A stretch of DNA of 35,534 nt from NCBI GenBank assembly GCA_009783415.1, contig WRHF01000004.1, forward strand, positions 1-35,534. The letters run 5' to 3'. Within the stretch, counting starts at the first letter, position 1. Every line of letters starts with the position of its first letter. Shown here in pieces: positions 581-27,123 of this stretch. This stretch comes from Clostridiales bacterium. GTDB lineage: Bacteria; Bacillota; Dehalobacteriia; UBA4068. The notes under the pieces were generated by a model. The model did not search any database. It was not told the DNA's origin and saw only the letters and a list, made by a program, of their open reading frames with translations. The position numbers and the translations under genes were made by a program.

Positions 581-3500
581 ATGTCTAAAATAAAAAAGCT
601 GGCAGCGAGCTTGCTGATTACCCTTATGCTTTTAAGCATGCTGCCACTTAAGGCTTTGGCCGGGGAAGATTTGCCTCCGTTCAATGATGTGAATGGCAGG
701 GAGTATTTTGCCCAGGCAGCCGGAGCCCTGACCCGGTTGGGGATTTTACAGGGATACCCGGACGGCGCCTTCAAGGCAGCCCGAAATATCACCCGGACGG
801 AAATGGTCGTTATCATCATCAGAGCCCTGGGCTTGGAGGGTGAGGTAAAAGCCGGGCCTTTGACCACTGGATATAAGGATGTGGTTGCAGGCCATTGGGC
901 CGGCGCTTATATCAACAAAGCTGCCGAATTGAAAATCATCCAAGGTGATGGCAACGGCAAATTCCGTCCGGATGACAATGTTAAATATGAAGAAACTGTC
1001 AAAATAGTGGCCGAGGCAGTGGGCCTGGGCTCAGAAGCAACCGTTGCCGGCGGCTGGCCGGACGGTTATCTGAAAGTTGCCGGGGATAAAGGACTCTTGA
1101 AAAATGTCCCCGGGCAAAAAGGGGCGGCAGCAATCAGGGGCGCCGTAGCCCTTATGGTTTATCAAGCCTTGTGCAGTCAGGTCAAGGCCCCGACTGCTTC
1201 TCTGGTAGAAGGCAGCTATCCTACCACCCAAAAAGTAACGCTGAGTACCCAAACAGCAGAGGCCAAGATCTATTATACCCTGGATGGCAGCGAACCCGGC
1301 CTTAACAGTACGGAATACAAAACAGAAATCACCGTGGATAAAACCCTTGCTTTGAAGGCTATAAGCGTAAAATCCGGAGCTTTTAACAGCCAGGTCTTTA
1401 CTGCCCAATATGCGATCGGAGCTGATCCCCCGGCTCCCGATGATGGCGGCGGTAACGGCGGCAGCGGCGGAGGGGGCGGAGGCGGTGATGGCGGCAATGG
1501 CGGCGGCGGAGGAACAACTACCTATTATTCAGTCAGCTTTGAGAGTAATGGCGGCAGCACCCTCGCCAAGCAATCTGTAATTGCCGGAGCAAAAGCCATC
1601 AAGCCGGCCGACCCGGCCAAACCCGGCTCTGTTTTCGGAGGATGGTTCACAGACCTGGAGTTAAGTAAAGGATTCGATTTTGCCGCCCCGATTATACATG
1701 ATATCACTCTTTATGCCAAATGGGCGGATCTTCCTCGAGATCCTGATCTGCCCACAGAAAATCCCAGAATCAAAATAGTGACCGATTTCCCTGAGGGGAA
1801 AACCACCCAAGCCGCTTTTGACATAGTATATACCGCTGTGGCCAGCCTGGGCGCGGAAATTGAAGAGGTTTCTTACAGGATAAATGGCGGCGCCCCGGAT
1901 TATCTCTATTTGCGGGGAGGCAATGGGATCAGCCCCAAAGGCAGCATTGGTTTCGGCAGGGTCTTTCCCGTCCCCGGCAAAAACAAAATCGTCTTCACGA
2001 TCAAAGACACTGCCGGAAAAAGCGCCGGCTTTGAGGTAAGCACAACTCCCGATTATGATTTTGGTAATCTGCCCACAGAGTACGACGAGGAAGCATTTAC
2101 AGTCTTTGCCAAAGAAGGCATCAGGGCGGATCAGGTATCCGCAGCAGTTAAGGAAACGAACGGCAGAATCACAGGACAGATATATGCCATCGGACTATAT
2201 TACATAGCTGTCCCCGGAAGCAAAGAAGCCTTTCTAAAAAAATACCCCGACCTATTTGAATTTGCCTATGCAGAAGATAACCTTTACTGCACCGCGGTAA
2301 TAAAAAAAGAAAGACACGAAGCGTCAACAAATAAAAAACAAATCGACCCCAACTCAACACTCAACACTCAAAACTCAAAACTTGGACTGCAAAGCAGTCC
2401 AACGGAAGAGGGTCCGCTCAAGGGAGGGGCTGTCAAATCCCGGATGGACTGGGATATTATAGGTCCGCTGATCGGCGGCGCTGTCCATACCCAAGACCCC
2501 TGGTGGGACAGGGAATATCAATGGGGTGTGGATGCCATCAAAGTTCCGGATGTTTGGAGCAGCTATGGCTACCGCCTCCGGGATATTAAAATCGGGGCGG
2601 GCGACACCGGTTTTCGCCTCAGCCATGAGGATCTGCAGCTGACGGAAAGCAATATTATCAACCGTCCCCGCACCGCAGACGACGACCACGGCACCCATGT
2701 GATGGGGACAATAGGGGCGATCCATAATAATAAGCTGGGTTTGGCCGGGACAAAGGATTTCAACCGGGCTGATTTGTACGGTTATGATGTTTGTGATGCC
2801 GGCCCTGAGGCTGCCTGTGATGAAGGCCTGATCGATGGCCTGATCTGGAATGTGCTGAATGGGGCAAAAATAATCAATTTCAGCTTTGGTTACCTAGCCG
2901 GCAAGGACCCCACCAAGGAACAGCAGCAGTTCTATGGAACAGTGATTCAACGCCTGCTGGATTTGGGTTATGACTTTGTGATCGTCAATTCTGCCGGTAA
3001 TGCCCAGACAGATGCCGGTCAAAACGGGGTTTTTCTCTGCGTGACCGATCCCAAGCTTCAGGAACGGATCATTGCCGTAGGGGCTACAGATCCCTGGGGC
3101 CGCATGGCATATTTTTCCAATTATGGCCCGCGGATAGATGTTGTGGCCCCCGGCATGAAAATTTATAGCAGCGTAGCCCATAATAACGGCAGAGATTCCA
3201 ATAGCAGCTATGAATACTATGACGGTACATCAATGTCTGCCCCTCATGTGGTAGGTGTAGCAGCCCTGGTTTGGTCTGCCAATCCCGGTCTCAAGGGAAC
3301 TCAGGTCAAGCAGATCATCAAGGATTCGGCCCAGGATTATGGGCGCATTGTCCGGGAAACCAGGTCTTATCTGCCCGAAGCCCAGGGAATGACCTATTAT
3401 CAGATCAATGCCAAGGCAGCGGTAGATCTGGCCCTGGGCCAAATGCCGGAAATAGCGAGAGGAGTGATCCGCGGCCAGGTGGCCGGGGTCGATGAAGCTC

Positions 3501-4522
3501 AAATCTATATGTGGAAGGGCAGCCCCCTTGGCAATGCCGAGTTGGAACTGCGGCTGGAAGCAAACGGACCAGTATTGGCAAGAGCCGCGACCGATAAACA
3601 CGGCGACTATGTAATAAATAATATCCGGGAAGGCCTCTATTATCTGGAAGCCTCCGCCCCGGGTTATATTTCCGAAACCATGCTGGTAGATGTTTCAGGC
3701 GATAGTTATCAAATAATTGGCCTTGTCCCGGAAAAAACGGAGCCTTGCCTATTCAAAGGCAAGATCAAAAATGCTGCTACGGGGCTCCCCGTAACCGGGA
3801 AGGTAGATCTTACTTTTTATAGGGTCGCTGATTCCGACCTGCTGGCTGAAGCGCCGGTTGCCGCCCGGATCACTGCCGCCAACGGAGAATTCAGCTTGGA
3901 GCTTCCGCCGGGCAGCTATATAGTGGAATATAGCGGCAAAGGTTACTATCCCGCCAGTATTCTCTTTTATGCCCTGGGCGGGCAAGTATTTAACGGGGAT
4001 CTGCGGATCCAGTCCTGGTATGATTTTGAGGATCCCCAAATCAGCATAGAAGTGACCTGGGCCGAGGGCAGCCTGGATCTGGATGCTCACCTGATCTGCC
4101 CCCGCTTTGCAGGGGATAGTTTCCATCTTTGGTATTGGGATAATATGTTTTTTGAATATGGGACCATAGATGGCTACTATAAAAATATCCTCTATGCCAC
4201 GTTGTGGGCCGACGGAGCTGTCGGGGCAGCCAGGGAAGATGTAGATATTTATCACCTGAAAGAGGGCAGATACGATTATTATCTGCAGGACTATTCCCAT
4301 TGGGATGAAATAAACAGCATGTTTTTAGCCGGGTCCGAAGCGGTGGTGAACGTCTTTGAGAAAAACGGAGAATTACTGGCTAGCTTTGGGGTTCCGGTGA
4401 CTGAGCCGGGCAGTATTTGGCATGTTTTCTCCCTAGAGGTCAAAGGCGGTAAATACAGCATTGTCCCGGTAAATAAGATGATGAACGAGCCAACCCAGTC
4501 CGAGGATGTGGGTAAACGCTAG
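581..4522 (+). CDS. Secreted SLH-domain S8 (subtilisin-like) serine protease, multidomain
   Basis: Signal peptide MSKIKKLAASLLITLMLLSMLPLKALAG; about three SLH repeats (FNDV..YPDGAFKAARNITRTEM, YKDV..GKFRPDDNVKYEE); chitobiase-like YYTLDGSEP; Gly-rich linker; InlB-B type repeat (VSFESNGGSTL...GGWFTD...LYAKW); S8 triad motifs GDTGF, DDDHGTHVMGTIG, GTSMSAPHVVG; carboxypeptidase-regulatory-like repeats; AAGGAGG RBS. Confidence 0.93.
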   Translation: MSKIKKLAASLLITLMLLSMLPLKALAGEDLPPFNDVNGREYFAQAAGALTRLGILQGYPDGAFKAARNITRTEMVVIIIRALGLEGEVKAGPLTTGYKDVVAGHWAGAYINKAAELKIIQGDGNGKFRPDDNVKYEETVKIVAEAVGLGSEATVAGGWPDGYLKVAGDKGLLKNVPGQKGAAAIRGAVALMVYQALCSQVKAPTASLVEGSYPTTQKVTLSTQTAEAKIYYTLDGSEPGLNSTEYKTEITVDKTLALKAISVKSGAFNSQVFTAQYAIGADPPAPDDGGGNGGSGGGGGGGDGGNGGGGGTTTYYSVSFESNGGSTLAKQSVIAGAKAIKPADPAKPGSVFGGWFTDLELSKGFDFAAPIIHDITLYAKWADLPRDPDLPTENPRIKIVTDFPEGKTTQAAFDIVYTAVASLGAEIEEVSYRINGGAPDYLYLRGGNGISPKGSIGFGRVFPVPGKNKIVFTIKDTAGKSAGFEVSTTPDYDFGNLPTEYDEEAFTVFAKEGIRADQVSAAVKETNGRITGQIYAIGLYYIAVPGSKEAFLKKYPDLFEFAYAEDNLYCTAVIKKERHEASTNKKQIDPNSTLNTQNSKLGLQSSPTEEGPLKGGAVKSRMDWDIIGPLIGGAVHTQDPWWDREYQWGVDAIKVPDVWSSYGYRLRDIKIGAGDTGFRLSHEDLQLTESNIINRPRTADDDHGTHVMGTIGAIHNNKLGLAGTKDFNRADLYGYDVCDAGPEAACDEGLIDGLIWNVLNGAKIINFSFGYLAGKDPTKEQQQFYGTVIQRLLDLGYDFVIVNSAGNAQTDAGQNGVFLCVTDPKLQERIIAVGATDPWGRMAYFSNYGPRIDVVAPGMKIYSSVAHNNGRDSNSSYEYYDGTSMSAPHVVGVAALVWSANPGLKGTQVKQIIKDSAQDYGRIVRETRSYLPEAQGMTYYQINAKAAVDLALGQMPEIARGVIRGQVAGVDEAQIYMWKGSPLGNAELELRLEANGPVLARAATDKHGDYVINNIREGLYYLEASAPGYISETMLVDVSGDSYQIIGLVPEKTEPCLFKGKIKNAATGLPVTGKVDLTFYRVADSDLLAEAPVAARITAANGEFSLELPPGSYIVEYSGKGYYPASILFYALGGQVFNGDLRIQSWYDFEDPQISIEVTWAEGSLDLDAHLICPRFAGDSFHLWYWDNMFFEYGTIDGYYKNILYATLWADGAVGAAREDVDIYHLKEGRYDYYLQDYSHWDEINSMFLAGSEAVVNVFEKNGELLASFGVPVTEPGSIWHVFSLEVKGGKYSIVPVNKMMNEPTQSEDVGKR
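2348..2404 (-). repeat. Hairpin + 7-nt reiteration element inside the protease CDS
   Basis: caactcaacactcaacactcaaaactcaaaacttggactgcaaagcagtccaa; hairpin GGACTGC-AAA-GCAGTCC. Confidence 0.75.
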
Positions 4523-4734: not shown

Positions 4735-5931
4735 ATGATTGAACGCAAAGAATATATGAACAGGCTGATCGGTTATCGCGACAAGCAGGTGATCAAAATT
4801 ATTACCGGGATCCGGCGTTGCGGAAAATCCACACTGCTCTTTATGTATCAGCAATACTTATTAAAAGGCGGTGTGGAGACGGGAAATATCATTACGATCA
4901 ACTTCGAGGATTATGACAACCGGAGCCTATGTGATCCGGGGGTGTTGCACGACTACATTAAATCGCACATGGCAGCAAAAGGCAGAACCTATGTGTTTTT
5001 GGACGAAATTCAGAATGTTCCGGAGTTTCAACGGGTGGTAGATAGTCTGTATCTGCGTAAAAATCTGGACATATATCTGACTGGCTCCAATGCCTGGCTT
5101 CTCTCCGGAGACCTGGCTACGCTGCTCTCCGGTCGCTATGTGGAGATAGAGATGCTTCCGCTCTCCTTTCGGGAGTATGTTTCAGTTGTTGGCGCGGATG
5201 ATCTCTCGCGTAAATATATTGAGTATTTGGAAAATAGTTCCTTTCCGGGTGCGCTTGAATTTTTGGGTAATCAAAAGCATATCAGCGGATACCTGCAAGG
5301 TGTTTACGATTCGGTCGTACTCAAGGATGTTGTAGGCAGATACAGAATCCCGGATACCATGATGCTGGAAAGCCTGGTACGTTTCGCCTTTGATAATATC
5401 GGCAGCCAGCTTTCTACCAAAAGCATCAGTAACACCATGAATGCCGACAGCCGGAAAATTGATGTAAAAACTGTGGAACGGTATCTTAAGGCGCTGATGG
5501 ACAGCTTCATACTCTATCAAGCCAAGCGGTACAATATCAAAGGAAAACAGTATCTAAAAACGCTGGAGAAGTACTACGCTGTTGATATTGGTATGCGCTA
5601 TCTGCTGCTGGGCAAACGCGGTCTTGATGTGGGTCATATTTTGGAAAATGTAGTTTATCTGGAATTGCTCCGGCGGGGGTATCAGGTGTATGTCGGAAAG
5701 GTTGATGAGTTGGAGGTTGATTTTGTCGCCATGGATCAATCCGGGCGGTCATATTTCCAGGTGGCGGCAACGGTTAGGGAACAGACGACGCTGGAGCGTG
5801 AACTTGCGCCGCTAAAAAAAATATCCGATCACTATCCGAAGTATATCCTGACCTTGGATGAAGATCCTGAGGCCGATTATGAAGGAATCCGGAAGATTCG
5901 GGTACTGGACTGGTTGCTGGGCAATCCCTAA
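4735..5931 (+). CDS. ATP-binding protein, AAA_14 / DUF4143 family
   Basis: Walker A GIRRCGKSTLL, Walker B YVFLDEIQ, LTGSNAWLLSGDLATLLSGRYVEIEMLPLSFREY motif, C-terminal nuclease-like ELEVDFVA; RBS GAGGAGG. Confidence 0.92.
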   Translation: MIERKEYMNRLIGYRDKQVIKIITGIRRCGKSTLLFMYQQYLLKGGVETGNIITINFEDYDNRSLCDPGVLHDYIKSHMAAKGRTYVFLDEIQNVPEFQRVVDSLYLRKNLDIYLTGSNAWLLSGDLATLLSGRYVEIEMLPLSFREYVSVVGADDLSRKYIEYLENSSFPGALEFLGNQKHISGYLQGVYDSVVLKDVVGRYRIPDTMMLESLVRFAFDNIGSQLSTKSISNTMNADSRKIDVKTVERYLKALMDSFILYQAKRYNIKGKQYLKTLEKYYAVDIGMRYLLLGKRGLDVGHILENVVYLELLRRGYQVYVGKVDELEVDFVAMDQSGRSYFQVAATVREQTTLERELAPLKKISDHYPKYILTLDEDPEADYEGIRKIRVLDWLLGNP

Positions 5932-8090: not shown

Positions 8091-11000
8091 ATGGAAAGAG
8101 AATTCACCTACGATGCTTTTATCAGCTACCGGCATACAGCACTTGATAAAGCTGCCGCAGACAAGCTTCAGAAGCTCTTGGAAAGATACAGTCCGCCAGC
8201 TTCGGTCAGATCAGAGATAGACCGGAAAAAGTTGCGTCTTTTCAGGGATGAAACCGAGCTTTCTATTGGCAACGATCTGAGCGAAGACATCAAAACAGCT
8301 TTGGAGAATTCCCGTTTCCTTATTGTCCTTTGCTCAAAAACAACCGCTCAATCCGCGTGGTGTCTGCAAGAAATTACCTATTTTAAAGAGCTCCATGATG
8401 GCAGCACAGATAATATCATAGTTTTGATGACCGAGGGGAATCCGTCCGAGGATCTCCCGTCTGAATTGTGCACAGAAACCCGCGCAATCAGAAGAGAAGA
8501 CGGTTCTTTGCATACCGAAACTGTTTATGTAGAACGTCTCGTTGCCAATATCTCAGCGCCTGCGGTAAAAGATTCAATAAAAAAACTGAAACGGGAGTAT
8601 TTGCGTATTGCAGCGCCATTATTTGGTTGCAGATTTTATGATTTGTATAAGCGCAATCAAAAAAGGGTCATTCGGCGGGTAATTACCATTTCTGCTATAC
8701 TGGTGGCTCTTCTGTCTGCATTCGCTACATACAGCAGCGCCATGGTTTATCAAATCAGCAGCCAAAGAAATGAGCTTGCCCAAAAGACGATCGATTTAGA
8801 ATCAAAAACAGTGGAACTAAATGAAACAAACACGGAACTGATCCAAAAGAATGACGAACTGGATTCCGTGAACTCTCAGCTGGAGCAAACAAACGATGAC
8901 TTGGAAGAAAGCAATATTGAGCTTGCCGCCAAAACCACTGAAGCCGAAGAGAATTTGATCTATGCAAATAGCCAAAAATCAGAAGCCGAGAAAAATCTGG
9001 AATATGCCAACCAGCAAAAGACCAAGGCTGAGAAAAACTTGGAATATGCCAATCGGCAAAAGGTTGAAGCCGAAAAAAATCTTGCATATGCGAATGAACA
9101 AAAAGAGCTGGCGGAAATCAATGAAGCAAACACAAAAAAAGCAAACCATGAACTGAGAGTTCAAAGTTCAGTTATTCTAACAGCACAAGCTAAACTTTAT
9201 TTTGACGATGGCGATAGAATAAATGCAATAAAAGCTGCTATCGGGGCATTGCCAATTGACGAAAATGATGATTTGCCCGTGAATACTACCGCCGAGTATT
9301 TACTATCGAAAGCGGCATCTATATATTCCGATTCTTCTGTTATGATGCGCAAAACAGTTGATACCTCCGGATATATTGCCGGAATGAAGTATAGCGATGA
9401 CGGATCCAAGCTCTTAGCATATGATACAAGTAATAATATTTACTTGATTGATACAAACAGTGACGAAGTTACGAAAACATATTCAGTTGTCAATGATTTT
9501 CATACTGTAGGGTCAAGCAGCGAAATTATGGATATAGTCATGGAAGAGGAGTATGCATATATTCTTTATTCCGGGGGTTTGGCCTGTATAAATCCCATTG
9601 ATGAAACTATACAGTGGTATATTGGGGGATTATTCTATGCAGATATGATAAAAACAAACCGCTCATCTGAGATAATCGCAGTAAAGACATTTGACGGAAT
9701 TTATTTCATAAATAAAAATGGTACATTAATAGAGGAATTTTCGAGTGATAAAGATTCCGGATGCTATTTTTCACTTGGTGATAATATCAAATACTATGAT
9801 TTAGACAGATACACAGCATTTGTTGATGAAAATGGATATTTATTCATTTGTACAGGATTTTATGGTGATTCCGGGCAATCCTTATTGCTGATCAAGCCGG
9901 ATAAAAGAACAGTAAATGCCTACAGCTTAAATTTGAGCGGATTATTATCAATGGCAGAGCTGGATGGTAATATCATAATCAGCGCCGGGACAAAATATGA
10001 GGGTAAAATCGTTTGCTATTATAAAAACGATTTAAGAGTTAAATGGGAGATCGATTATGACAGTGACCGGGCATACCTTTCCAAATATCAATTTAATAAA
10101 ATCTTCAGGCACAATGCTCTGGAATTATGGCAAAGTGAAGAGAAACGGGATGTGGTATGTGTTATTTCAGGAGAAAGTATTGTAAGCGTAGATTATAAGA
10201 CCGGAGAATTGCTGACAAATTATAGCGCGCATTCTGAGATAAAGGATATATGTTATCTGAACCGGCGAGGATTTGTCGGCCTTGGGGTAGGAGGCATTTA
10301 TAATTTTTGCTTATCTGAGTATTTATCTGTCAGATTTGCTTCGCTTCATTCTGATGAGGAAATAGAGCATATGGCTTATGGTTCAGAGGATAAATTCGCC
10401 TTTACGGAGAGCAATTCTTCTAAAATCAACACATATAAATCAGGTTCTAGAGAGAATCAGTCTGTTGAGCTGGCCGGCTCAGATACTGACAAATTCGATC
10501 TCTTAAGAGAAAACGGCTATGGGGTCATCGCCTACTTCGATCATAATTATAATAATGAAATAAATTCTCTAAAAATTTATGACACAAATAAAAGGGAGCA
10601 AAAGGGAGAAATCTCTTTGAATTCAGACAAAGAAATTTTGTGCTTGGAATTTGTTAATGCTGACAAGTTGGTGATATGTGATGACAAAGGCAGCATGTAT
10701 TTATATGATGTTGGCGGGCATTTGTTGGACCAGATAAATTTTTCTGAAAAAAGCGATGAAATCGCCGGCAATTCCCTGCTGCCGGATGCCGGCATTTCTT
10801 TTTCCAATTCATCAATTCTGGCTTCAAACCAAGGCGACCGCTTTATTTGCCGGGCATCGGAGCATTTAATTTATCTAGAAATCTCAATGAATACACTGAA
10901 TATTGAAGAAATAATTGATTGGCCTTGGACATACTATGATCTTTCTAAGTGTTTTACAGAAACAAACTTTAGGATAAATTCATTTTCAGCGCCAATATAT

Positions 11001-11639
11001 ACTGAAAACACACAAGGCGATACGGAATATTTACATAACAGGATTTTGTTCGTTGATGATAGCTATGAGGTTTCTTATATGCTTGACGGAGATAATGAAT
11101 TTACATATGACAGAAAAGAAGTGTCAGATCTATTGCTTTCCAATCATGGGGAAATCATTGCCTTTATAAAAATAGACGATTATGTCGGTATTTATTCAAT
11201 AAAAGATAAATTGCTCCGTAAAATCAAGTTTTCGGCAGGCAATGCAATTCCTAAATCTATCGTATTTACTCCGGACGATAGGTTTTTGCTTGCCTTTTGT
11301 CATAACGGCAATATAATTCGCTATTCATTGCTTGATTTAAGCATATCTGATCAAATTAAAATAGGCCTTGATGCATCTCATTCATCATGTGATTTTGAGT
11401 TTATCGGCAATAACGAGGTCATCATATCAGGCAATGAGAGAGCCATATTTGTTAATTACGGCAGCATGATGATCAGGGCGGAAATTGCTGATAATTATGT
11501 TGGCTTTATCCATTCATCAAGAAGAATAATAACATACAAATATAGTAATGGAAGTAAGAGATACACGCTGTATTATTATAAGTACCTTAGCATCGAAGAG
11601 TTAATTGAATCAGCAAAGCGCTTTGCGGAAATAGATTAA
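8091..11639 (+). CDS. Membrane TIR-domain protein with coiled coil and C-terminal beta-propeller/WD40-like region
   Basis: EREFTYDAFISYRHTALDKAAADKLQKLLERY, LRLFRDETELSIG, FLIVLCSKTTAQSAWCLQEI (TIR; candidate catalytic Glu in SAWCLQE); TM helix RRVITISAILVALLSAFATYSSAMVY; long coiled coil; many repeated strand motifs (e.g. SDDGSKLLAYDTSNNIYLID, TPDDRFLLAFCHNGNIIRYSL). Start at 8085 or 8091 preferred over the ORF-track TTG. Confidence 0.9.
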   Translation: MEREFTYDAFISYRHTALDKAAADKLQKLLERYSPPASVRSEIDRKKLRLFRDETELSIGNDLSEDIKTALENSRFLIVLCSKTTAQSAWCLQEITYFKELHDGSTDNIIVLMTEGNPSEDLPSELCTETRAIRREDGSLHTETVYVERLVANISAPAVKDSIKKLKREYLRIAAPLFGCRFYDLYKRNQKRVIRRVITISAILVALLSAFATYSSAMVYQISSQRNELAQKTIDLESKTVELNETNTELIQKNDELDSVNSQLEQTNDDLEESNIELAAKTTEAEENLIYANSQKSEAEKNLEYANQQKTKAEKNLEYANRQKVEAEKNLAYANEQKELAEINEANTKKANHELRVQSSVILTAQAKLYFDDGDRINAIKAAIGALPIDENDDLPVNTTAEYLLSKAASIYSDSSVMMRKTVDTSGYIAGMKYSDDGSKLLAYDTSNNIYLIDTNSDEVTKTYSVVNDFHTVGSSSEIMDIVMEEEYAYILYSGGLACINPIDETIQWYIGGLFYADMIKTNRSSEIIAVKTFDGIYFINKNGTLIEEFSSDKDSGCYFSLGDNIKYYDLDRYTAFVDENGYLFICTGFYGDSGQSLLLIKPDKRTVNAYSLNLSGLLSMAELDGNIIISAGTKYEGKIVCYYKNDLRVKWEIDYDSDRAYLSKYQFNKIFRHNALELWQSEEKRDVVCVISGESIVSVDYKTGELLTNYSAHSEIKDICYLNRRGFVGLGVGGIYNFCLSEYLSVRFASLHSDEEIEHMAYGSEDKFAFTESNSSKINTYKSGSRENQSVELAGSDTDKFDLLRENGYGVIAYFDHNYNNEINSLKIYDTNKREQKGEISLNSDKEILCLEFVNADKLVICDDKGSMYLYDVGGHLLDQINFSEKSDEIAGNSLLPDAGISFSNSSILASNQGDRFICRASEHLIYLEISMNTLNIEEIIDWPWTYYDLSKCFTETNFRINSFSAPIYTENTQGDTEYLHNRILFVDDSYEVSYMLDGDNEFTYDRKEVSDLLLSNHGEIIAFIKIDDYVGIYSIKDKLLRKIKFSAGNAIPKSIVFTPDDRFLLAFCHNGNIIRYSLLDLSISDQIKIGLDASHSSCDFEFIGNNEVIISGNERAIFVNYGSMMIRAEIADNYVGFIHSSRRIITYKYSNGSKRYTLYYYKYLSIEELIESAKRFAEID

Positions 11640-11661
11640 GTTATTATGGAGGAATCAAACT

Positions 11662-14061
11662 ATGGGCATTCTCATCTGCGGTCACGCCTACACCCGCGTC
11701 TTCACCCATATCGAAAATGGCATTCGCTACGAGTTTTCCGCCCCCGGCGGAGCAGAACTGCTTAAGGCATTACTAAATGCAGAGCCTGCTTCTGAGCTTG
11801 AAGGCGAAAGAAGGGAATTTTTTGAGCTGGGGTATGTTATTGATAAACCGGCAAAAAAGGAATATTATTCCATTATACGCCGTGCCGGGGCTATAGGTAA
11901 TAAGATGGATGTTATCAGCGGGCCGGCCAAGGAAAGCCGGATTATTTGGGATGAAGGTTTTGGTGGTATCTGCTTACCGGGAGATCAGCCGCCAACCTTG
12001 TGGGCATCTAAAAAATCCTTGCCCGATAAGAATTGCTTCGATAAAGCAGCGGTGAACGGTTTCCTGTTTCTAGATGCGGATATACTCCGCACAGCAGGCG
12101 CCTTGATCAGCCGGCAGATTTCCTGGGAACGCACGGCAACGGAATTGATCTGGCAGATCCAAAATAATCCTGTTTTGTCTTATTTGCTCAAGGCGCCGCA
12201 TATTCTTATTGCTTTTGCCGAGGATGGTGCTGTTTATATCAAACGTGAAAATGGTGAAATTAAGGCTTCACTGGTGCTGACTCATGGCGGAGGAGAAGGG
12301 ATTTTGCGGGAAAAGCTTAAAGGTGAGATCGATGATGCTTTTATCCTGATGACCGCAAGTCTGGCCAAGCAATTCCCGGCGGTATTGAGTGGTAAAGAAC
12401 CCTTGCTAGTCCTCCCCCTATTACGGACTGCAGAAGCGCTTATGAACTCCGGCTATACCATAGCCGGACTGGAAAACAGTCAGTTTACTATTATTACGGA
12501 AACAGAGGAAGCGGAGATTGCCTTTGAGATCCCCCTAACACCTGATGGAAATGTTATTGGCCGGGATAATTGGTGTATTTCCAATAATGTGGGTGACAAA
12601 CGTGTTTTTGATATTGCCTATAATTATGTGCGGGTAGGCGCAAAAGAAATAGAAGGCTTGCCGCAATTATCTTTTGGCGCCTTTACTACTGTTGACCGCT
12701 TTGAGATCGAGGCTTTCCAAAACATCCGTAACCTGATTGTCGGTTATGACAAATCCGACAGTGTGCGCCCTCTCTCTATCGCTGTATTCGGTTCTCCCGG
12801 AAGCGGTAAATCCTTTGGAGTCACCCAGATTGCCAAAAATGTGCTGCCGGATATAGTAGAAAAGCTGGAATTTAATGTATCCCAATTTAGGGATCTAAAT
12901 GATCTCAGTGCAGCCTTCCAAAAAGTACGGGATTTGGTATTGGAGGGTAAATTGCCCCTTGTTTTCTTTGATGAATTTGATTCCGACAAAGACGGCTTGC
13001 TGCTGGGTTGGCTCAAGAGTTTTATCATGCCTATGCAGGATGGTAAATTTAAAGACAATAGCGGTGAACATCCTCTTGGTAAATGCATTCTCGTCTTTGC
13101 CGGCGGCACCTCAGCGAATTTTGAGGAATTTATGGCCCCAATGAGCCATAATGGCCAATTATCTTTGCCGCCCCATTTCTCTGAAGAGCCCATAAATCAT
13201 CTGATAATAGAGAACGGCAGACAAAAATATGAGGATTTTAAAAACATTAAGGGCCCTGATTTTGTCAGCCGGCTGAAAGGCATCATCAATGTTCTGGGAC
13301 CGAACCCCAAAGATAAAGACGACAAAAACTATATCCTGCGCCGGGCCTTGCTTCTGCGCAGCCTTTGCGAACGCAAATTCAAGATGAAAAATGGCATCGC
13401 GCCGGTGAGTAAAAACATCATCTGGGCGATGCTGCTTGTTCCCGAATACAAGCACGGCGCCCGGTCCATGGAAGCGATCCTGGAGATGAGCCGCCTGGAA
13501 GGCAATGTCTGGGAGCCTGTTTCTTTACCCTTTTATTCTCAGCTTGATCTGCATGTCGATGCCGCTGCTTTTATCAAGCTGGTATTGCGTAAGGTGATAT
13601 TGAACAGCTATGTGGATAAATTGGCAATTGCTATTCATGAGGATTATCGAAAAAAAATGCAGACAACAGGGCATGGCGACTATCCCAGCGTTGTCCTTTG
13701 GGATGATTTGCCGGAGGAATTCAAGGATTCAAACCGGAATCAGGCCCGGCATATTGGCCGAAAATTAAAAGAAGCCGGCTATAATTATGATGCCGGCGAC
13801 ACGTCATTTTCCTCGGTGGAAGTCTTTGACGAGGAGATAGTTCTGCTGATGGCTAAAAACGAACATATCCGCTGGCTGGATGAAAAAATCGCAGGCGGCT
13901 GGAAATATGATCCGGTGCGTGATGACGCTAACAAGTCACATCCGTTACTGATAGAATGGAAAAATTTACCAGATGAAGAGAAGCAGAAAGATATCAATGC
14001 TGTGCAAAACATAATTCCGCTCCTGAAAAGTGTTGGGTTGAGGGTGTATAAGATGATATAA
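11662..14061 (+). CDS. AAA+ ATPase with N-terminal putative PfkB-like region and tandem C-terminal RyR-like domains
   Basis: Walker A FGSPGSGKSFG, Walker B LPLVFFDEFD; RyR-like repeat 1 LAIAIHEDYRKK...WDDLPEEFKDSNRNQARHIGRKLKEAGY and repeat 2 KNEHIRWLDEKIAGGWKYDPVRDDANKSHPLLIEWKNLPDEEKQKDINAVQNIIPLLKSVGLRV. N-terminal FLDADILRTAGALISRQISWERTATELIWQI looks PfkB/ribokinase-like (weaker). Starts 22 bp after the TIR gene; RBS GGAGGAATC. Confidence 0.88.
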   Translation: MGILICGHAYTRVFTHIENGIRYEFSAPGGAELLKALLNAEPASELEGERREFFELGYVIDKPAKKEYYSIIRRAGAIGNKMDVISGPAKESRIIWDEGFGGICLPGDQPPTLWASKKSLPDKNCFDKAAVNGFLFLDADILRTAGALISRQISWERTATELIWQIQNNPVLSYLLKAPHILIAFAEDGAVYIKRENGEIKASLVLTHGGGEGILREKLKGEIDDAFILMTASLAKQFPAVLSGKEPLLVLPLLRTAEALMNSGYTIAGLENSQFTIITETEEAEIAFEIPLTPDGNVIGRDNWCISNNVGDKRVFDIAYNYVRVGAKEIEGLPQLSFGAFTTVDRFEIEAFQNIRNLIVGYDKSDSVRPLSIAVFGSPGSGKSFGVTQIAKNVLPDIVEKLEFNVSQFRDLNDLSAAFQKVRDLVLEGKLPLVFFDEFDSDKDGLLLGWLKSFIMPMQDGKFKDNSGEHPLGKCILVFAGGTSANFEEFMAPMSHNGQLSLPPHFSEEPINHLIIENGRQKYEDFKNIKGPDFVSRLKGIINVLGPNPKDKDDKNYILRRALLLRSLCERKFKMKNGIAPVSKNIIWAMLLVPEYKHGARSMEAILEMSRLEGNVWEPVSLPFYSQLDLHVDAAAFIKLVLRKVILNSYVDKLAIAIHEDYRKKMQTTGHGDYPSVVLWDDLPEEFKDSNRNQARHIGRKLKEAGYNYDAGDTSFSSVEVFDEEIVLLMAKNEHIRWLDEKIAGGWKYDPVRDDANKSHPLLIEWKNLPDEEKQKDINAVQNIIPLLKSVGLRVYKMI

Positions 14062-14133: not shown

Positions 14134-14154
14134 ATTGACGAGGTGGTGATTGAG

Positions 14155-15354
14155 ATGGAAAAAATTGTCCCGCGTCCGCGTTTTTTGGAAAAACTGATAA
14201 AATTCCGTGAGGTCGATGTTATCAAAGTCGTAACAGGCGTCAGGCGTTGCGGCAAATCAACTTTGTTTGAATTGTTTATTGAGCACCTGAAGCAGGCAGG
14301 CGTTGAGGAAAGCCAAATCATTCATATCAATCTGGAAGACGTTAATATGGAGCATTTGCATGACTACCATGCCCTGAACGAATTTCTTGTGAACAAACTG
14401 CAAAAGGAGAGGATGACCTATATCTTCATTGACGAAGTCGGCCGCTGCCCGGGGTTTGAAAAAGCGGTTGACAGCATCTATATCAAAAAAAATACAGATG
14501 TCTATATTACAGGTTCTAATGCTGACTTGCTTTCCGGTGAACTTGCTACTTTGATTTCGGGGCGTTATGTGGAAATCAAAATGCTGCCGTTTTCATTTGC
14601 GGAGTTTTATGAGGCAAACGAAAACAAAGATAAAAACAGGGCATTTATTGACTACCTGAATATCGGAAGCCTCCCGGTTGTCGTTACCCAGCTGAAGAGT
14701 GATATGGAGCTTTCTGACCAGTATTTGGAGGGTATTTATAATACCGTCATTGTCAAAGATGTTGTCAGCCGAAAGGGCATCAGTGATATCGGTTTGCTGA
14801 AAAATATTGTCAAGTACCTTTGCAGCAATGTGGGCAGCTCCATTTCAACCGCAAATATAACCGGCTATATCAACAACTCCGGCAGAAAAATTACCCAGAA
14901 GACAGTTGATAAATATATCAAAGCCCTGGTGGATAGTTTCTTGTTTTATAATGTTGAGCGCTATAATATTAAGGGCAAAAACCTCTTGAAAACACTTGGT
15001 AAATATTATATCGTTGATACGGGATTGCGCAATCATCTGCTTTCTTCGGCAAATTTAGATACCGGTCATCAGATAGAGAACATTGTATTTCTGGAACTCT
15101 TGCGCCGCGGTTACCGGGTAAACATCGGTAAAATTGATGAGAGGGAAATTGATTTTGTTGCGGCCAGGCAAAACACCAAGGAATACTATCAAGTCTCCTT
15201 GTCTGCTCTTGACGAACCGGTCCGGGAGCGCGAGCTCGCCCCCCTGCTGAAAGTCAGCGACAATTATCCGAAATACCTTTTGACGCTTGATTTCATTAGC
15301 GGAGACTATGAAGGAATAAAGCAAATCAATTTAATTGATTGGCTGCTGCTATGA
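14155..15354 (+). CDS. ATP-binding protein, AAA_14 / DUF4143 family (paralog of 4735-5931)
   Basis: GVRRCGKSTLFELF, YIFIDEVG, YITGSNADLLSGELATLISGRYVEIKMLPFSFAEFY, C-terminal EIDFVAARQ. ATG at 14155 has RBS AGGTGG; the track start 14143 is an alternative. Confidence 0.92.
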   Translation: MEKIVPRPRFLEKLIKFREVDVIKVVTGVRRCGKSTLFELFIEHLKQAGVEESQIIHINLEDVNMEHLHDYHALNEFLVNKLQKERMTYIFIDEVGRCPGFEKAVDSIYIKKNTDVYITGSNADLLSGELATLISGRYVEIKMLPFSFAEFYEANENKDKNRAFIDYLNIGSLPVVVTQLKSDMELSDQYLEGIYNTVIVKDVVSRKGISDIGLLKNIVKYLCSNVGSSISTANITGYINNSGRKITQKTVDKYIKALVDSFLFYNVERYNIKGKNLLKTLGKYYIVDTGLRNHLLSSANLDTGHQIENIVFLELLRRGYRVNIGKIDEREIDFVAARQNTKEYYQVSLSALDEPVRERELAPLLKVSDNYPKYLLTLDFISGDYEGIKQINLIDWLLL

Positions 15355-20530: not shown

Positions 20531-21286
20531 TTATATTTGCTTTTGGTTCAGAAATCCAAGCAATACCTGGGGCCTGATAAATATCTTATTCTTTTGCACA
20601 TCATTATAAGGTAAAGTTAGATGGTTATCAGCTAGACCCAGCTCTTCTAAGAGCAAAAGGATTCCTTTCAGGTTACTTTCGGTGTCGGTTATGCCCGGGA
20701 TCAGGGGGGTTCTGGGAATGATCCTTATTTCTTCCTTGACCAGATGACGCAGATTATCCAGAATAAGCAGGTTGTCCCGGCCGGTATACTTCTTATGTTC
20801 TTCGGGATCGATCAGCTTGAGGTCATAGAGGATACAGTCAAGATAGGGCAAAACCAGATCTTTGAAAGCTGAAAAATCAAAATAACCGCAGGTTTCAATT
20901 GCGCAGCTGATCTCCTTATCTCTAAGTATCTTAGCAAACTCACCAATAAATTCCATATGCAGGGTCGGCTCTCCGCCGCTGAGCGTAACCCCGCCGCCTG
21001 AAACCCTATAATAGGTAATATCTTCGCTGACCATGGATACAAGTTCGTTGATAGTACATTGCATCCCAATAGAGGAAAGCGCTCCATAGGGGCATAAATC
21101 AAGGCAATTGCCGCAGTTTTGGCAGAGTTTGCCGGTATAGGAATATTCAAAATACTGATTTTTGGAAACCGGATTATGGCACCATAAGCAATCTAAGGGG
21201 CATCCTTTAAAAAACACTACGGTTCTGATCCCGTCACCATCATCAATACTGCCCCTTTTGATTTGAAAAATGAATGGTGTTTTCAT
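20531..21286 (-). CDS. Glycyl-radical enzyme activating protein (radical SAM)
   Basis: DDGDGIRTVVFFKGCPLDCLWCHNP (CxxxCxxC), extra cluster CQNCGNCLDLCPYGAL, SGGGVTLSGGEPTLH. Confidence 0.94.
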   Translation of the reverse strand: MKTPFIFQIKRGSIDDGDGIRTVVFFKGCPLDCLWCHNPVSKNQYFEYSYTGKLCQNCGNCLDLCPYGALSSIGMQCTINELVSMVSEDITYYRVSGGGVTLSGGEPTLHMEFIGEFAKILRDKEISCAIETCGYFDFSAFKDLVLPYLDCILYDLKLIDPEEHKKYTGRDNLLILDNLRHLVKEEIRIIPRTPLIPGITDTESNLKGILLLLEELGLADNHLTLPYNDVQKNKIFIRPQVLLGFLNQKQI

Positions 21287-21833
21287 TGGTTCCTCCCGGG
21301 GGTAATGCCATATTTCTGAGTGTTAAGGCCATATAGGCGAATTTGATCAAATAGTTTAAATTGCCTTTGAAGTCGATCTCCTGTTTAAGGGCTGCCTCAA
21401 AGATATTGGGCGGATAGGAAAGCAGTAATTTCATGATCGCTTCTCCGTCTTTGAAAACAAGGGTGACCTTAGGATCCGAAACCTGTCTTTTTCGAATCTT
21501 GAGCTTATTATCTTTAAATATCGCCGCGACATGTATATTGGATTTTCCGTTAATAAACAAATACTCCGCTTCAAAATCCTTGATGTTTTTCCGGAAGTTG
21601 GAATCGATTATCAGAATAAGGCTCATTATTCTCAACAATACAACTAAGAACTTATCCGCCACCGCCCTTGAAATTATTCCCACTAACGCCCTCTTGATAA
21701 TGCCGAGAAACTTGCCAAAGTAGTGTTTTATCCTGATCTCTCTAAAGTGAATGGGATTTTCTGCCGTTTTATGCGGATTCTCTTCTGTTTTACCCGGATT
21801 GTCTGCTAATTTAGGTGCAGTGATCGTATTCAT
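21243..21833 (-). CDS. Hypothetical protein, SCP2-like sterol/lipid-binding fold (tentative)
   Basis: FINGKSNIHVAAIFKDNKLKIRKRQVSDPKVTLVFKDGEAIMKLLLSYPPNIFEAALKQEIDFKGNLNYLIKF matches the SCP2-like pattern. Lies between glycyl radical enzyme and activase and overlaps the latter. Confidence 0.55.
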   Translation of the reverse strand: MNTITAPKLADNPGKTEENPHKTAENPIHFREIRIKHYFGKFLGIIKRALVGIISRAVADKFLVVLLRIMSLILIIDSNFRKNIKDFEAEYLFINGKSNIHVAAIFKDNKLKIRKRQVSDPKVTLVFKDGEAIMKLLLSYPPNIFEAALKQEIDFKGNLNYLIKFAYMALTLRNMALPPGGTNENTIHFSNQKGQY

Positions 21834-24239
21834 TTACAGCACCGCCCTTCCGTTGATATCATATTCGGCCCGCAATATCAATTCATCCTTCATCCGTTCG
21901 GTCAAATTATTAAAATAAGCGGAATAGCCGGAAACACGCACCAGCAGGTTGGGATAATTGTCCGGGTTCAATTTGGCGTCAATGAGCATTTGCCGCGACA
22001 TGATATTGAACTGTATTTGCTGTCCGCCATTGATGAAGTAGGCTTCGACATAATCGCCTAAGCGCTTGATATCTTCACTGCCTTCTATCGAAGGAAATTT
22101 GATGTTCAAAGCTTCCCCGCCCGGTATGTTCTCACAGCCCAGAGAAGCAACGCTGTTCAGGCATTCCGTCAGGCTTCTGACCGCATGCGGTACGGGTGTG
22201 ATCCCGCTGGAAAAGGGTAGCGCCGCTCTGCGCCCGCTGGGCAGGGCATGAGTTACTTGGCCCAGCCCCGAATGCTGGGTCATGGTCCAGTAAGCGGGCC
22301 GGTACTTTCCTCCGCGATGATTGGTATGGCTTTGATAGGTGTCATGCAAAAAGCGGATGACTTCTCCTGACATTCCGGATTCGCTCTCGGCCTTGGTTCC
22401 GTATTTTAAGGCATAATGCTTTATTATCTGCCGTAAATACTCATACCCGTCATAATCAGCTTTCAAAGCATCTTGGAGCAGGCGCATGGTATAGTGTGTT
22501 TCCTCCAGCAGATAGCGGATCGCGTTCAGTGAATCCACAACATCGGCAAAACCGACATGGGTAACCCCCGAAGAATTATAGATTGCCCCTCCGCAAATAA
22601 GGTCGCATCCCTTTGTCAAAGGGCCTTCAAACAGCGCCGACAGCAGCGGGGTAGGCAGCATCTGCTGATGGATCTTGGCCATCTGTTCATTTAAGTCAAT
22701 GGCTTGGCCGATCAGCCAGCCGGTTTGCTTTTGAAAAGCTGCCCAAAAGTCGTTAAAATTGGTAAAATCTTCCAATTCACCGGTTGAGGGGCCAAATTGC
22801 TCTTCCCCGGTACTATAACGCCTGCCATTATACATAGCCATTTCCAGAGGCGCTGTCAAATTGAGGATAACGGCGCTGGAAGAGTCATAACTCCTGCCTG
22901 GTATCCCCAGCTCAACACAGCCGATTATGGCATAATCCCGGGCATGTTCGATGGAGGCGCCGTGACTGTGAAGGGTCTCGATATTGGCGTCGTCGTTATG
23001 GAATGCAGGGATAGCTTTGGTTTTGGCTATCACCTCGGCGACCCGGTTGCGGTACCTTTTTTCGTTTTTTTCATAATGAAAGCGGGCATTCATATTTGGT
23101 TCGCGCAAACCCAACAGCTCGGTTGCTCTCAGCATGATATAGGTCAGATCATTTACCGCGTCCTCGCCCTCCTTATTGATACCTCCCAGGGTAACTGCGG
23201 GTGCGGTGCCGGCGCCTCCAAACAACTCTTCCGACATTTCCGGAACCAGGTTGACATTGTCGCCTATTTTGATCCAAAGATTACCAACTATCTCCAAAGC
23301 TTCTTCAACTGTCAGGATGCCGGAGGCGATATCTGCTTGATAATAGGGGTAAAGAACCTGGTCAAGGCGTCCGGGACTGATTGCCATGTTCATATTTTCC
23401 GCATGAATAGCGACCAGGCAAAGCCAGAGGCAACTGACCGCTTCATAAAAGCCGGCAGCGGGTTTCGCGGGCACATGGGCGCAAGCCCTGGCCATCCGCA
23501 GGAAGCGGGCTTTATCTTTGGGGTTTTTTTGGTTTTGGGCAAGCCGGTGGGCTTCTATGCCAAGATGCCTGACATATCTTAAGAAGCCTTTCAGGACAAT
23601 GCTTGCCGCATTATAAAAATCTTTGCTTTCGGTTTTTTGGGCAGCTTTTTGCTCTGCCTCTTCAATGATAGCATCCAAGCCTTCCTGCAAAACACGCTCA
23701 AAAAAAGGAACCGTATGGGATATGCAGCCGGCTTTTCCCGCTACAAAAAAGATGATTTTCTCCAGCATCCGGGTCGAGATACTCTCACCGAATTCCTTTT
23801 TGGTAGCGCTCAGCACATCCCGGTCCAGCCAATAGGGATAAATTTGAAAATTCAGCTTTTGTGCATCTTCTTTAGACAGAACTTGAGGATTTTTTTCCCT
23901 GGTACTGATAGTATTAAGCTCTGCCCAGATCATCATCCCGATATATTCCGGATAAAGCGGCGCTGATTTTAGCTTGGAGCCGGTGGTTCCGGCAAGCAGA
24001 TTGCCGTCAGGAAAAACAGCCTCTTTATTTTTGAGATAATGGGCGACCGTATTGGCGCGGAAGATGATAGGCGGTTGCCCATCTCCGTCATGGGCCTGCA
24101 TGTATTCGGTAATCAATCCGGCGCGCTCAATACAAACCTCAACAGGAGCGGATAGCAGGGTATCGCGCAAGGCAGCCAAATCTTTGAGTTCGTTAAGCGT
24201 AACTCCACTCAAACGGATATCTTCAAGTGTTACAGACAT
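21834..24239 (-). CDS. Glycyl radical enzyme, pyruvate formate-lyase family; substrate unknown
   Basis: Active-site Cys motif YAIIGCVELGIPGRSYDSSSA; C-terminal glycyl radical loop LLVRVSGYSAYFNNL; PFL-like N-terminus; activase two genes downstream. Confidence 0.94.
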   Translation of the reverse strand: MSVTLEDIRLSGVTLNELKDLAALRDTLLSAPVEVCIERAGLITEYMQAHDGDGQPPIIFRANTVAHYLKNKEAVFPDGNLLAGTTGSKLKSAPLYPEYIGMMIWAELNTISTREKNPQVLSKEDAQKLNFQIYPYWLDRDVLSATKKEFGESISTRMLEKIIFFVAGKAGCISHTVPFFERVLQEGLDAIIEEAEQKAAQKTESKDFYNAASIVLKGFLRYVRHLGIEAHRLAQNQKNPKDKARFLRMARACAHVPAKPAAGFYEAVSCLWLCLVAIHAENMNMAISPGRLDQVLYPYYQADIASGILTVEEALEIVGNLWIKIGDNVNLVPEMSEELFGGAGTAPAVTLGGINKEGEDAVNDLTYIMLRATELLGLREPNMNARFHYEKNEKRYRNRVAEVIAKTKAIPAFHNDDANIETLHSHGASIEHARDYAIIGCVELGIPGRSYDSSSAVILNLTAPLEMAMYNGRRYSTGEEQFGPSTGELEDFTNFNDFWAAFQKQTGWLIGQAIDLNEQMAKIHQQMLPTPLLSALFEGPLTKGCDLICGGAIYNSSGVTHVGFADVVDSLNAIRYLLEETHYTMRLLQDALKADYDGYEYLRQIIKHYALKYGTKAESESGMSGEVIRFLHDTYQSHTNHRGGKYRPAYWTMTQHSGLGQVTHALPSGRRAALPFSSGITPVPHAVRSLTECLNSVASLGCENIPGGEALNIKFPSIEGSEDIKRLGDYVEAYFINGGQQIQFNIMSRQMLIDAKLNPDNYPNLLVRVSGYSAYFNNLTERMKDELILRAEYDINGRAVL

Positions 24240-24484: not shown

Positions 24485-25801
24485 TTACCTCCGGCTTCCT
24501 GCTTCCGGCTTCTGTCTTCTTGAGGGCGTAGTCCCCAAGGCAATTTCCTGATAGCTTGACATCTGTTCCATACTCCCGATTGATGAATATTCTCCTGTCA
24601 CATTATAAACATGTTTGTAAGCGAGCTCATTATACATAAAAAACAAATCGCTGATATCCCTGGAAATCATCGGGAATACGGCGCGAGCCTGATCGCCATG
24701 TTCCGAATAGATATCAGAAAGTTCTCTGCTATCAATGTCAAGCTTATTGAGGACCCTTCTATTTTTATAGTTCAGGCGTTGCAGCTTTATCTCGATGAAC
24801 TTGTTTTTTTGATAACAATAGGAAATATTTGGGAATATCCTGGACCATCTCTCTTTGTTTTCAACATGGTCTTTTTGATTATTGATGTTTTGGGCTATTG
24901 CCAGTTTTCTCTTTAAAATATGCCATTCATCACTATTTGGGGCAGGTTTGCCTGTTATTTTGCATAGTATTTTCAGGATCCGCCGGGAACAGTCGGCAAA
25001 GGCTTCCGAGTTGTTACGCTCAATAACAGACTCCATGTCTCCATCTTTCCTCATCTTAGTATAAAGAAGAATCTTACGTTCGCAAAAATCGGTTACGGAA
25101 TCAGCATTGCAGTGACCGATAGACGGCAACGTACGGAAAAAGATTCTTTCGGCTAAATTCATATTGCAATTTGTTGCTGGCTTGGCAAAGTGCTTTCCCA
25201 AAAATGTATTTCTCAGCCTAAAAGAGGGTTGGCTGATCATTTGCCAAGGGTGTTTAGTTTCCAACCCGGCAATATAAAATTCGTTTTCCCAGCCATGAAA
25301 GCCGGAAAAGCCATCGTGTGAATAGGTGTCGGCATAAATATGCAGCATCATGCCCAAGGCCATTAGGGAATATTTGTCTTTGAGGTTCACCTTTTCAACT
25401 GTTTCTTTCATCAGATGATTTATGAGAAGGTCATCTTTTTTACTTGCCATAATACAGCGGTAATTGCTGCGGTCGGCATCTTCCGGTAATTCGGGAAAAG
25501 GCACAGGTAAAATAAAATGAAAGGGCATTAAGGTATGAATCTGATAATTATGAGATCTGGAATTAAGCAAACTGAATCCGGTAGGGCATGGGGCAAAAGT
25601 CCACCGGTTATCGCATAATCTGTCAGCCAGGCTATTTTTCAGAAAAAACTCCGGAGGTTCCCTGTCCACTATAAAGGGTTTGCGCATAATATAATCATCA
25701 ACATATTGAGAAAAGTAGGCGATAAACTGCGCGGTTTCGTCGCTGAATCCGGCATAATATGCCAGCGTTTTCACTGTGTAATAGTGATAATTTACCAACA
25801 T
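24485..25801 (-). CDS. DUF6765-like protein (possible metal-dependent, phospholipase C-like HD/H-rich fold)
   Basis: NYHYYTVKTLAYYAGF, SLMALGMMLHIYADTYSHDGFSGFHGWEN; paralog of the next gene. Confidence 0.65.
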   Translation of the reverse strand: MLVNYHYYTVKTLAYYAGFSDETAQFIAYFSQYVDDYIMRKPFIVDREPPEFFLKNSLADRLCDNRWTFAPCPTGFSLLNSRSHNYQIHTLMPFHFILPVPFPELPEDADRSNYRCIMASKKDDLLINHLMKETVEKVNLKDKYSLMALGMMLHIYADTYSHDGFSGFHGWENEFYIAGLETKHPWQMISQPSFRLRNTFLGKHFAKPATNCNMNLAERIFFRTLPSIGHCNADSVTDFCERKILLYTKMRKDGDMESVIERNNSEAFADCSRRILKILCKITGKPAPNSDEWHILKRKLAIAQNINNQKDHVENKERWSRIFPNISYCYQKNKFIEIKLQRLNYKNRRVLNKLDIDSRELSDIYSEHGDQARAVFPMISRDISDLFFMYNELAYKHVYNVTGEYSSIGSMEQMSSYQEIALGTTPSRRQKPEAGSRR

Positions 25802-25827
25802 TGTTCCATGCCTTTTCCTTATTAAAA

Positions 25828-27123
25828 TTAAGCAAGCTTTTTCTGGGGGCAGATACTCAGGGCAAGCTCATGATAGTTGAACATTTGCTCGGTTTTCCCG
25901 GGTGATGCATATTCACCGGTCACTTGATAGACATGTTCATAGGCAAGTTCGTTAAATGTGAAGAACAAATCACTGACATCTTTGGCGAGCATGAGGGTCA
26001 CGGCACGGGCCTGATCACCCGCTTCCGAATACATATCCAAAAGGCTGCGGTTATTGATGGCAAGCTCATCTGTTAAGTATTTAGTCTTATAAGTCAGGCG
26101 TTCGAATTTCAGGTCGATAAACTCATTTTTACGGAAATTATATTCGATATCGGGAAAGATCATGGACCATTTCCTCTTGTTGGTTTTATGATTTCCCTGT
26201 TTGATAAGACTTTGAGCTATTGATAGTTTTTTTTGTAATAGCTGCCATTCGTCATCATTCAGAGCGGGCTTGCCGCTCACTTGACAGAGCATATTGAGTA
26301 TATTTCTGGAACAATCAGCAAAGGACTCCGAGCTGTCACGCTCAATGAAAGGTTGCAGTTTTTCTTGTTTGTCCGTTTTGGCAAGCAGGCAAATTTTGCA
26401 CTCACAGTAATCCGGTGCGCAATAGACATTTCCGTGTCCGATGGAGGGCAGATTACTGTAAAAGAGTTTTTCCGGCAATCCCATTTCCCTATGTACCGAA
26501 AGTTTTCCTAAAAGCTTATCTTGCAGCCATTTGTGAATTGTATGGTAAAAGTATTCTTTTTCTCTCTTGGGATAGCAGCGATCCATTTGGGCAATATATG
26601 CTTGGTTTTCCCAACCATGAAAACCGGAAAAGCCGCAATGCGAATAGGTATCCGCATATGTGTGTAATAACATGCCTAAAGCCATAAGCGAGGGTTTATT
26701 TTCAGGGCTGGCTTTATTCAGAGCTTTTTCCAGCAGGCGGTTAATGAGAAGGTTATGGTCTTGATTTGCCGTTACACAACGGTAAAGGCTGCGGTCGGGG
26801 TTTTCCGGTAATTCGGGAAAGGCAAGCGGCATAATGAAGTGGAAGGGCATGAGGGTGTGCAGCTGATAATTATGAGACGATGTATTTATAATATTAACTC
26901 CGGTAGCGCAGGGTGAAAATATCCATTTGTTTGTGTACAATTCTGTTGCCAAGCCATTTTTCAAGAAAAAATCCGGCGGTTTCCTGTCAATTACAAATGG
27001 TTTGTTCATGATATAGCAATCTATATAATTGGAAAAATAAGCGATCAATTGCGCAGCTTCGCTATCAAACCCGGCATAAGACGCCAATGTTTTTACGGTA
27101 TAATAATGATAAGTCGCTTGCAT
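25828..27123 (-). CDS. DUF6765-like protein, tandem paralog
   Basis: TYHYYTVKTLASYAGFDSEAAQLIAYFSNYID, LMALGMLLHTYADTYSHCGFSGFHGWEN; collinear with 24485-25801. Confidence 0.65.
   Translation of the reverse strand: MQATYHYYTVKTLASYAGFDSEAAQLIAYFSNYIDCYIMNKPFVIDRKPPDFFLKNGLATELYTNKWIFSPCATGVNIINTSSHNYQLHTLMPFHFIMPLAFPELPENPDRSLYRCVTANQDHNLLINRLLEKALNKASPENKPSLMALGMLLHTYADTYSHCGFSGFHGWENQAYIAQMDRCYPKREKEYFYHTIHKWLQDKLLGKLSVHREMGLPEKLFYSNLPSIGHGNVYCAPDYCECKICLLAKTDKQEKLQPFIERDSSESFADCSRNILNMLCQVSGKPALNDDEWQLLQKKLSIAQSLIKQGNHKTNKRKWSMIFPDIEYNFRKNEFIDLKFERLTYKTKYLTDELAINNRSLLDMYSEAGDQARAVTLMLAKDVSDLFFTFNELAYEHVYQVTGEYASPGKTEQMFNYHELALSICPQKKLA

Follow-up and report, generated by a model that had tools for sequence, protein, structure and literature searches.

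The gene pair, its domains and the predicted pocket

The stretch of DNA analysed here (the window; 35,534 nt, contig WRHF01000004.1 of the Clostridiales bacterium assembly GCA_009783415.1) carries two neighbouring genes, encoding a TIR protein with a transmembrane (TM) helix, coiled coil and WD40-like propeller (gene 1) and an AAA+ protein ending in repeats of the RyR domain, known also from animal ryanodine receptors (gene 2), that together look like an unrecognised immune-type signalling module. They lie on the same strand, 22 bp apart, with a ribosome site (GGAGG) preceding gene 2, and both open reading frames (ORFs) proposed in an initial annotation, made from the sequence without database searches, were confirmed. 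The source genome has a single RyR gene, which adjoins one of its three TIR_2 genes, and with these numbers the adjacency is not attributable to chance. The other two TIR_2 genes (L083:1905-2975 and L084, G000:C2:29441-29806) have no RyR gene near either. The features of the pair are:

8091..11639, + strand: gene 1, TIR-TM-coiled coil-WD40-like protein, 1182 aa (ATG at 8091, stop at 11639)
8118..8450, + strand: TIR domain, residues 10-120
8370-8372, + strand: candidate catalytic Glu, E94, of the WCxxE motif (in SAWCLQE)
8667..8723, + strand: single TM helix, residues 193-211
8748..9155, + strand: coiled-coil region, about residues 220-355
9345..11423, + strand: WD40-like propeller region, about residues 419-1111
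11662..14061, + strand: gene 2, ribokinase-fold - AAA+ - tandem RyR (R12) protein, 799 aa
11662..12591, + strand: N-terminal ribokinase/PfkB-fold domain, about residues 1-310
12694..13566, + strand: AAA+ domain, residues 345-635
13594..13785, + strand: RyR repeat 1, residues 645-708, degenerate
13810..14052, + strand: RyR repeat 2, residues 717-797
13864-13866, 13873-13875, 13939-13941 and 13990-13992, + strand: repeat 2 pocket residues H735, W738, H760 and D777

The TIR domain of gene 1 exceeds the Pfam cut-offs for TIR_2 (8e-12), TIR (1e-11) and ThsB_TIR (3e-10). Its closest solved chains are plant TIRs, e.g. Roq1 and RUN1, with whose WCxxE Glu E94 aligns, and the candidate catalytic motif suggests a TIR of the NAD-cutting type (NAD+, nicotinamide adenine dinucleotide). 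The TM helix (hydropathy 2.05 over 19 residues) is preceded by the charged segment RNQKRVIRR, which suggests that the TIR side is cytosolic, and is followed by AEKNLEYAN-type repeats giving coiled-coil-type matches only. For the propeller, the gene 1 sequence alone gave weak matches (several propeller models reached about 1e-5, all short of the cut-off), whereas a profile of TIR-TM-WD40 relatives searched against the PDB matched WD40 chains down to 9e-24. All four parts (a TIR with a candidate NADase Glu, a TM helix, a coiled coil and a long propeller-like region) had been read in the initial annotation and are borne out. A TIR-TM-WD40 relative of gene 1 also overlaps a SLOG-like gene with four TM helices (L057:5360-9461), completing a TIR-SLOG-RyR triangle.

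An AlphaFold model of gene 2, built from a 22-row alignment (predicted local distance difference test, pLDDT, 83), has three visible parts. No name was obtained for the first from sequence, and a PDB search with the N-terminal alignment gave nothing, but a separate model of this domain (pLDDT 83.3, predicted template modelling score 0.84) had 33 PDB matches at E<=0.001 in Foldseek, all of the ribokinase superfamily among the matches listed, the best being ketohexokinase, PFK-2 and sugar kinases (E 6e-6). Ribokinase/PfkB sugar kinases share this fold and have a GAGD motif, whereas a motif scan found none in the N-terminal part of any row of the gene 2 family; the domain therefore probably serves in binding and not as a kinase. 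In the AAA+ domain, Walker A (GSPGSGKS) and Walker B (FFDEFD) are invariant or nearly so among relatives, and the PDFxSR arginine and a sensor-2-like GAR are also kept. No Pfam, NCBIfam or PADLOC model identified it above threshold; the best Foldseek matches of its core are ClpB NBD2 and ClpX, and by its modelled fold it belongs to the Clp/HCLR clade, with which it shares PDFxSR and GAR. It differs from ClpB and ClpX in its N- and C-domains, and in the alignment no aromatic GYVG-like pore loop was seen between Walker A and B. The AAA core and the RyR-like C-terminus had both been recognised earlier, and the ribokinase-fold N-terminus and the Clp-type clade had been overlooked.

At the C-terminus the gene 2 model matches the whole two-repeat R12 (Repeat12) of human RyR3 over about 190 residues (Foldseek), so that the earlier description of tandem RyR-like repeats is structurally correct. 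Against the RyR profile (PF02026) it holds for repeat 2 (61.9 bits against a cut-off of 27.4; 7e-17), and the degenerate repeat 1 falls below the Pfam threshold, with HYYN (H659, Y662, Y674, N691) at the pocket positions. These positions are defined by the phage RyR protein RyDEP, described in a 2026 preprint, which binds and hydrolyses the cyclic ADP-ribose (cADPR) isomers 2'cADPR and 3'cADPR through H75, W78, H100 and D117; all four contact the ligand, and H75/D117 form the catalytic pair (PMC13232231). In gene 2 only repeat 2 keeps this pocket, as H735, W738, H760 and D777, with spacings (3/22/17) identical to those of RyDEP. Among 22 non-redundant loci encoding AAA-RyR proteins, 18 have HWHD, three have HWSD (L003), HWND (L011) or HFHD (L014), and one (L008) is cut by an assembly gap. 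Six of eight RyDEP homologues tested bind the signals, two of them binding cADPR isomers at nanomolar affinity, and none besides RyDEP cleaved them (PMC13232231).

RyDEP and other PF02026 R12 proteins of phages thus share fold, pocket and spacing with gene 2; however, RyDEP is a small phage evasion protein, whereas in gene 2 the R12 terminates a cellular AAA+ protein whose gene adjoins a TIR gene. A phage origin of gene 2 was considered and rejected: IMG/VR contained no relative, and two phage records matched the RyR part over about 75 residues only. These records (MT837259.1 and MT836850.1, unannotated faecal phage contigs) possibly contain RyDEP-like evasion genes.

Partner genes in related loci

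Relatives of gene 2 were collected from GTDB species genomes (27 loci), a sample of the phylum (6 of 399 genomes) and plasmids, and their neighbours were scanned with Pfam and then with profiles built from those neighbours (L and G numbers denote loci and genomes). As a partner we counted any gene of the TIR, DUF4062 or SLOG-like kind that was fused to the AAA-RyR gene or lay no more than two ORFs away on its strand. Such a partner is present in 20 of the 22 non-redundant AAA-RyR loci: TIR in seven (the window, L004, L006, L013, L014, L022 and L041), DUF4062 in eight (L003, L005, L007, L008, L012, L017, L018 and L019) and SLOG-like in five (L002, L009, L010 and L015, with a fusion in L023). 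The two loci lacking one are L011 and the Methylobacterium plasmid L048, which has a SIR2-family gene nearby on the other strand. The catalytic Glu is kept in the neighbouring TIRs, and DUF4062 is a TIR-like NADase domain with antiphage activity (PMC13174449). The SLOG-like label is provisional, resting on sub-threshold matches of 3 and 2 of 11 members to two SLOG-superfamily Pfam models, and a search of the SLOG-like profile against the PDB found nothing. In the source genome itself there was no match to DUF4062 and none to the SLOG-like profile, the latter a negative without a positive control; in the window pair itself, gene 1 carries a TIR and no DUF4062 domain. RyR-less AAA relatives (L016, L020, L021 and L026, some on short contigs) have no such partner.

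In a phylogeny of the AAA domain, partner kind changes at least nine times, and TIR alone at least five times on well-supported branches, and TIR, DUF4062 and SLOG-like genes therefore act as equivalents. In L002, the nearest relative of the window, a SLOG-like gene stands in place of the TIR gene. The exchange extends to gene 2 itself, since in L042-L045 the C-terminal place of RyR is taken by a SLOG-like domain; L023 has both. The initial annotation had missed that the TIR partner can be swapped for DUF4062 or SLOG-like genes. The exact TIR-TM-propeller/AAA-RyR pairing was rejected as a conserved unit: in the 27 loci and the 399 genomes of the phylum it was found only in the window, and it is the class of partner that is conserved.

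That pairing's uniqueness would suit an explanation in which TIR, DUF4062, SLOG-like and RyR genes merely share variable islands and have no joint function, and TIR genes do generally cluster in islands. This explanation is very improbable, however, given that partner genes are often −29 to about 100 bp from the RyR gene on the same strand, that fusions occur, and that partners are about 7-fold enriched within two ORFs compared with farther ORFs of the same RyR loci (Fisher p 7e-8, indicative only, because the rows are not independent and the profiles had been built from the same neighbours).

A sample independent of gene 2 was obtained by searching the 399 phylum genomes for any RyR domain (PF02026). 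Ten genomes have one; in nine of these an RyR gene has TIR, DUF4062 or a SLOG-like gene as its immediate neighbour or within one or two genes, G181 being the sole exception. In two genomes from the family to which the window belongs, the arrangement is RyR(578)-TIR-LRR with a 4-bp overlap; others are DUF4062-RyR-SLOG-like (G248), RyR-TIR-AAA-RyR (G164) and a 96-aa RyR adjoining TIR (G342).

Other arrangements were seen among the related loci. In L005, L008, L012, L017 and L019 the gene directly downstream of AAA-RyR encodes a large DUF4062 protein, and several of these also have NACHT/STAND and propeller domains in a TEP1/NWD-like layout. In some Bacteroidota (L007, L012 and L017) a stand-alone RyR gene (96-98 aa) lies upstream of AAA-RyR, and in others (L005, L006 and L008) it is fused to its N-terminus. 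RyR proteins with two predicted N-terminal TM helices, two of them with TrkA_N, accompany AAA-RyR or SLOG-like genes (L006:2581-4236, L007:8792-10441 and L028:3495-5228) and are possible channel-type receivers. A Bathyarchaeota locus (L025:541-7716) has a RyR-SLOG-like fusion, an opposite-strand TIR and a RyR-less AAA relative, and the module therefore reaches archaea.

A possible NAD-derived signalling module

With slightly better than even confidence, the pair can be read as a two-gene, Thoeris-like module of NAD-derived signalling in which RyR would be the signal receptor and gene 2 the receiver and executor; of the readings that account for the pocket, the recurrent NADase neighbours and the swap of RyR with SLOG, this is the simplest. 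Gene 1 would be both sensor and signal maker: the propeller, held by the TM helix and coiled coil, would detect a trigger, and the TIR domains would cluster and turn NAD+ into an ADP-ribose-type signal (a cADPR isomer, ADP-ribose (ADPR) or a conjugate). Repeat 2 of the R12 of gene 2 would bind this signal in the H735/W738/H760/D777 pocket, and the ribokinase-fold domain is predicted to offer a second site, for a nucleoside or sugar. Signal binding would switch the Clp-type AAA+ ring, which would carry out the response or gate it. The response would most likely be growth arrest or abortive defence, and the families involved are consistent with an anti-phage function. The initial annotation proposed that the RyR protein senses a nucleotide made by the TIR; this idea gains strength from the ADPR-type residues of the pocket, from the recurring TIR, DUF4062 or SLOG-like neighbours and from the replacement of RyR by a SLOG-like domain.

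In Thoeris (ThsB TIR with the effector ThsA, SIR2-SLOG or TM-macro), a TIR gene likewise stands beside a gene with a domain for ADP-ribose-type signals; the TIR catalytic Glu is kept here too, and SLOG-like domains swap with RyR in the gene 2 family. The window pair is not Thoeris by membership, however, since it lacks the SIR2-SLOG or TM-macro effector: neither SIR2 nor macro is present, its receiver is ribokinase-fold - Clp-type AAA+ - R12, and its TIR protein additionally carries a TM helix, coiled coil and propeller. The second comparison is Swarozyc, described as a portal-activated DUF4062 NADase that acts on its own (PMC13174449); DUF4062 proteins, some NACHT-WD40, replace the TIR gene in eight related loci, but here they pair with AAA-RyR. 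AAA-RyR operons are not mentioned in the main texts of PMC13232231 or PMC13174449 (in the latter, neither RyR nor AAA), and may have been described earlier elsewhere.

Several observations weigh against NAD-derived signalling by the pair. No PADLOC 2.0 model fits gene 1 or gene 2 over its full length, there being weak partial TIR, coiled-coil and AAA matches only. The SLOG assignment depends on a motif together with the sub-threshold matches, AAA-RyR genes of the other loci lack the TIR-TM-propeller partner, 5 of 32 RyR loci have no partner within two ORFs by a strict count, and the RyR-less control loci are few and some of their contigs short. Two further points concern the ligand and its fate, and each leads to a different account of the pair.

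Firstly, human R12 structures among the matches hold ATP/ADP-type ligands (ADP, AMP-PCP), so that the ligand could be an ordinary adenine nucleotide. R12 and the ribokinase fold would then respond to ATP/ADP or to some other housekeeping nucleotide and tune AAA+ activity, while the TIR protein would simply deplete NAD+ and be assembled or restrained through contact with the ring. SLOG is the cADPR sensor class of ThsA, and metabolic regulation of this kind, which appears distinctly unlikely, leaves the swaps of SLOG-like genes with RyR and with TIR unexplained. It would fit the depletion of NAD+ by the Swarozyc DUF4062 protein, which needs no signal receptor (PMC13174449), but not the nanomolar binding of cADPR isomers by two RyDEP homologues (PMC13232231).

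Secondly, AAA-RyR could be a host off-switch, cleaving or sequestering the signal or disassembling the TIR assembly, with TIR or DUF4062 as the executing NADase or signal maker. Clp-type rings, as a family, take apart protein assemblies. The RyDEP catalytic pair recurs in gene 2 as H735/D777 with the same spacing, and in G342 and G281 small stand-alone RyR genes adjoin a TIR gene or lie close to one, as for a buffering protein. The RyR proteins characterised so far are hydrolases or sponges, phage RyR domains cleaving or sequestering the signal rather than acting on it (PMC13232231). An off-switch nevertheless seems unlikely. Conserved residues are no proof of hydrolysis, since RyDEP homologues bind without cleaving; the large ribokinase-AAA-R12 protein would be elaborate for such a task; and L002, L009 and L015, which have a SLOG-like partner and no TIR or DUF4062 gene in the stretch seen, offer nothing to attenuate.

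A broader proposal can also be made, to which we give somewhat less than even credence: R12 may be a dedicated bacterial receptor for TIR-made ADP-ribose signals, housed in a pseudo-sugar-kinase - Clp-type AAA+ machine and in TrkA_N-RyR membrane proteins and served by interchangeable partners (TIR, DUF4062, SLOG-like), with the animal RyR domain and phage RyDEP as offshoots of an old NAD-signal receptor. Bacterial RyR domains would thereby gain a testable job, as a probable new receiver class in TIR signalling alongside SLOG and macro domains, and DUF4062 NADases of the TEP1/NWD type would be tied to a specific partner. It would also explain why phage RyR proteins destroy or soak up cADPR, as the domain would be shared with the host receiver, and would be relevant to the long-standing question of a direct action of cADPR-type molecules on animal ryanodine receptors.

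Other genes of the window

The pair is bracketed on the same strand by two AAA_14-DUF4143 ATPase genes (4735-5931 and 14143-15354; 48% identical), both of which match the PADLOC candidate PDC-S01 (1e-150 or better). A single gene on the opposite strand separates the first of them from gene 1. No RNA families or tRNAs were found in the window. Farther away are an S8 subtilase with SLH, chitobiase-type and List_Bact repeat domains (581-4522), a glycyl-radical (pyruvate formate lyase-like) enzyme with a radical SAM gene that is likely its activase (20531-24239), and two adjacent DUF6765 genes (24485-27123).

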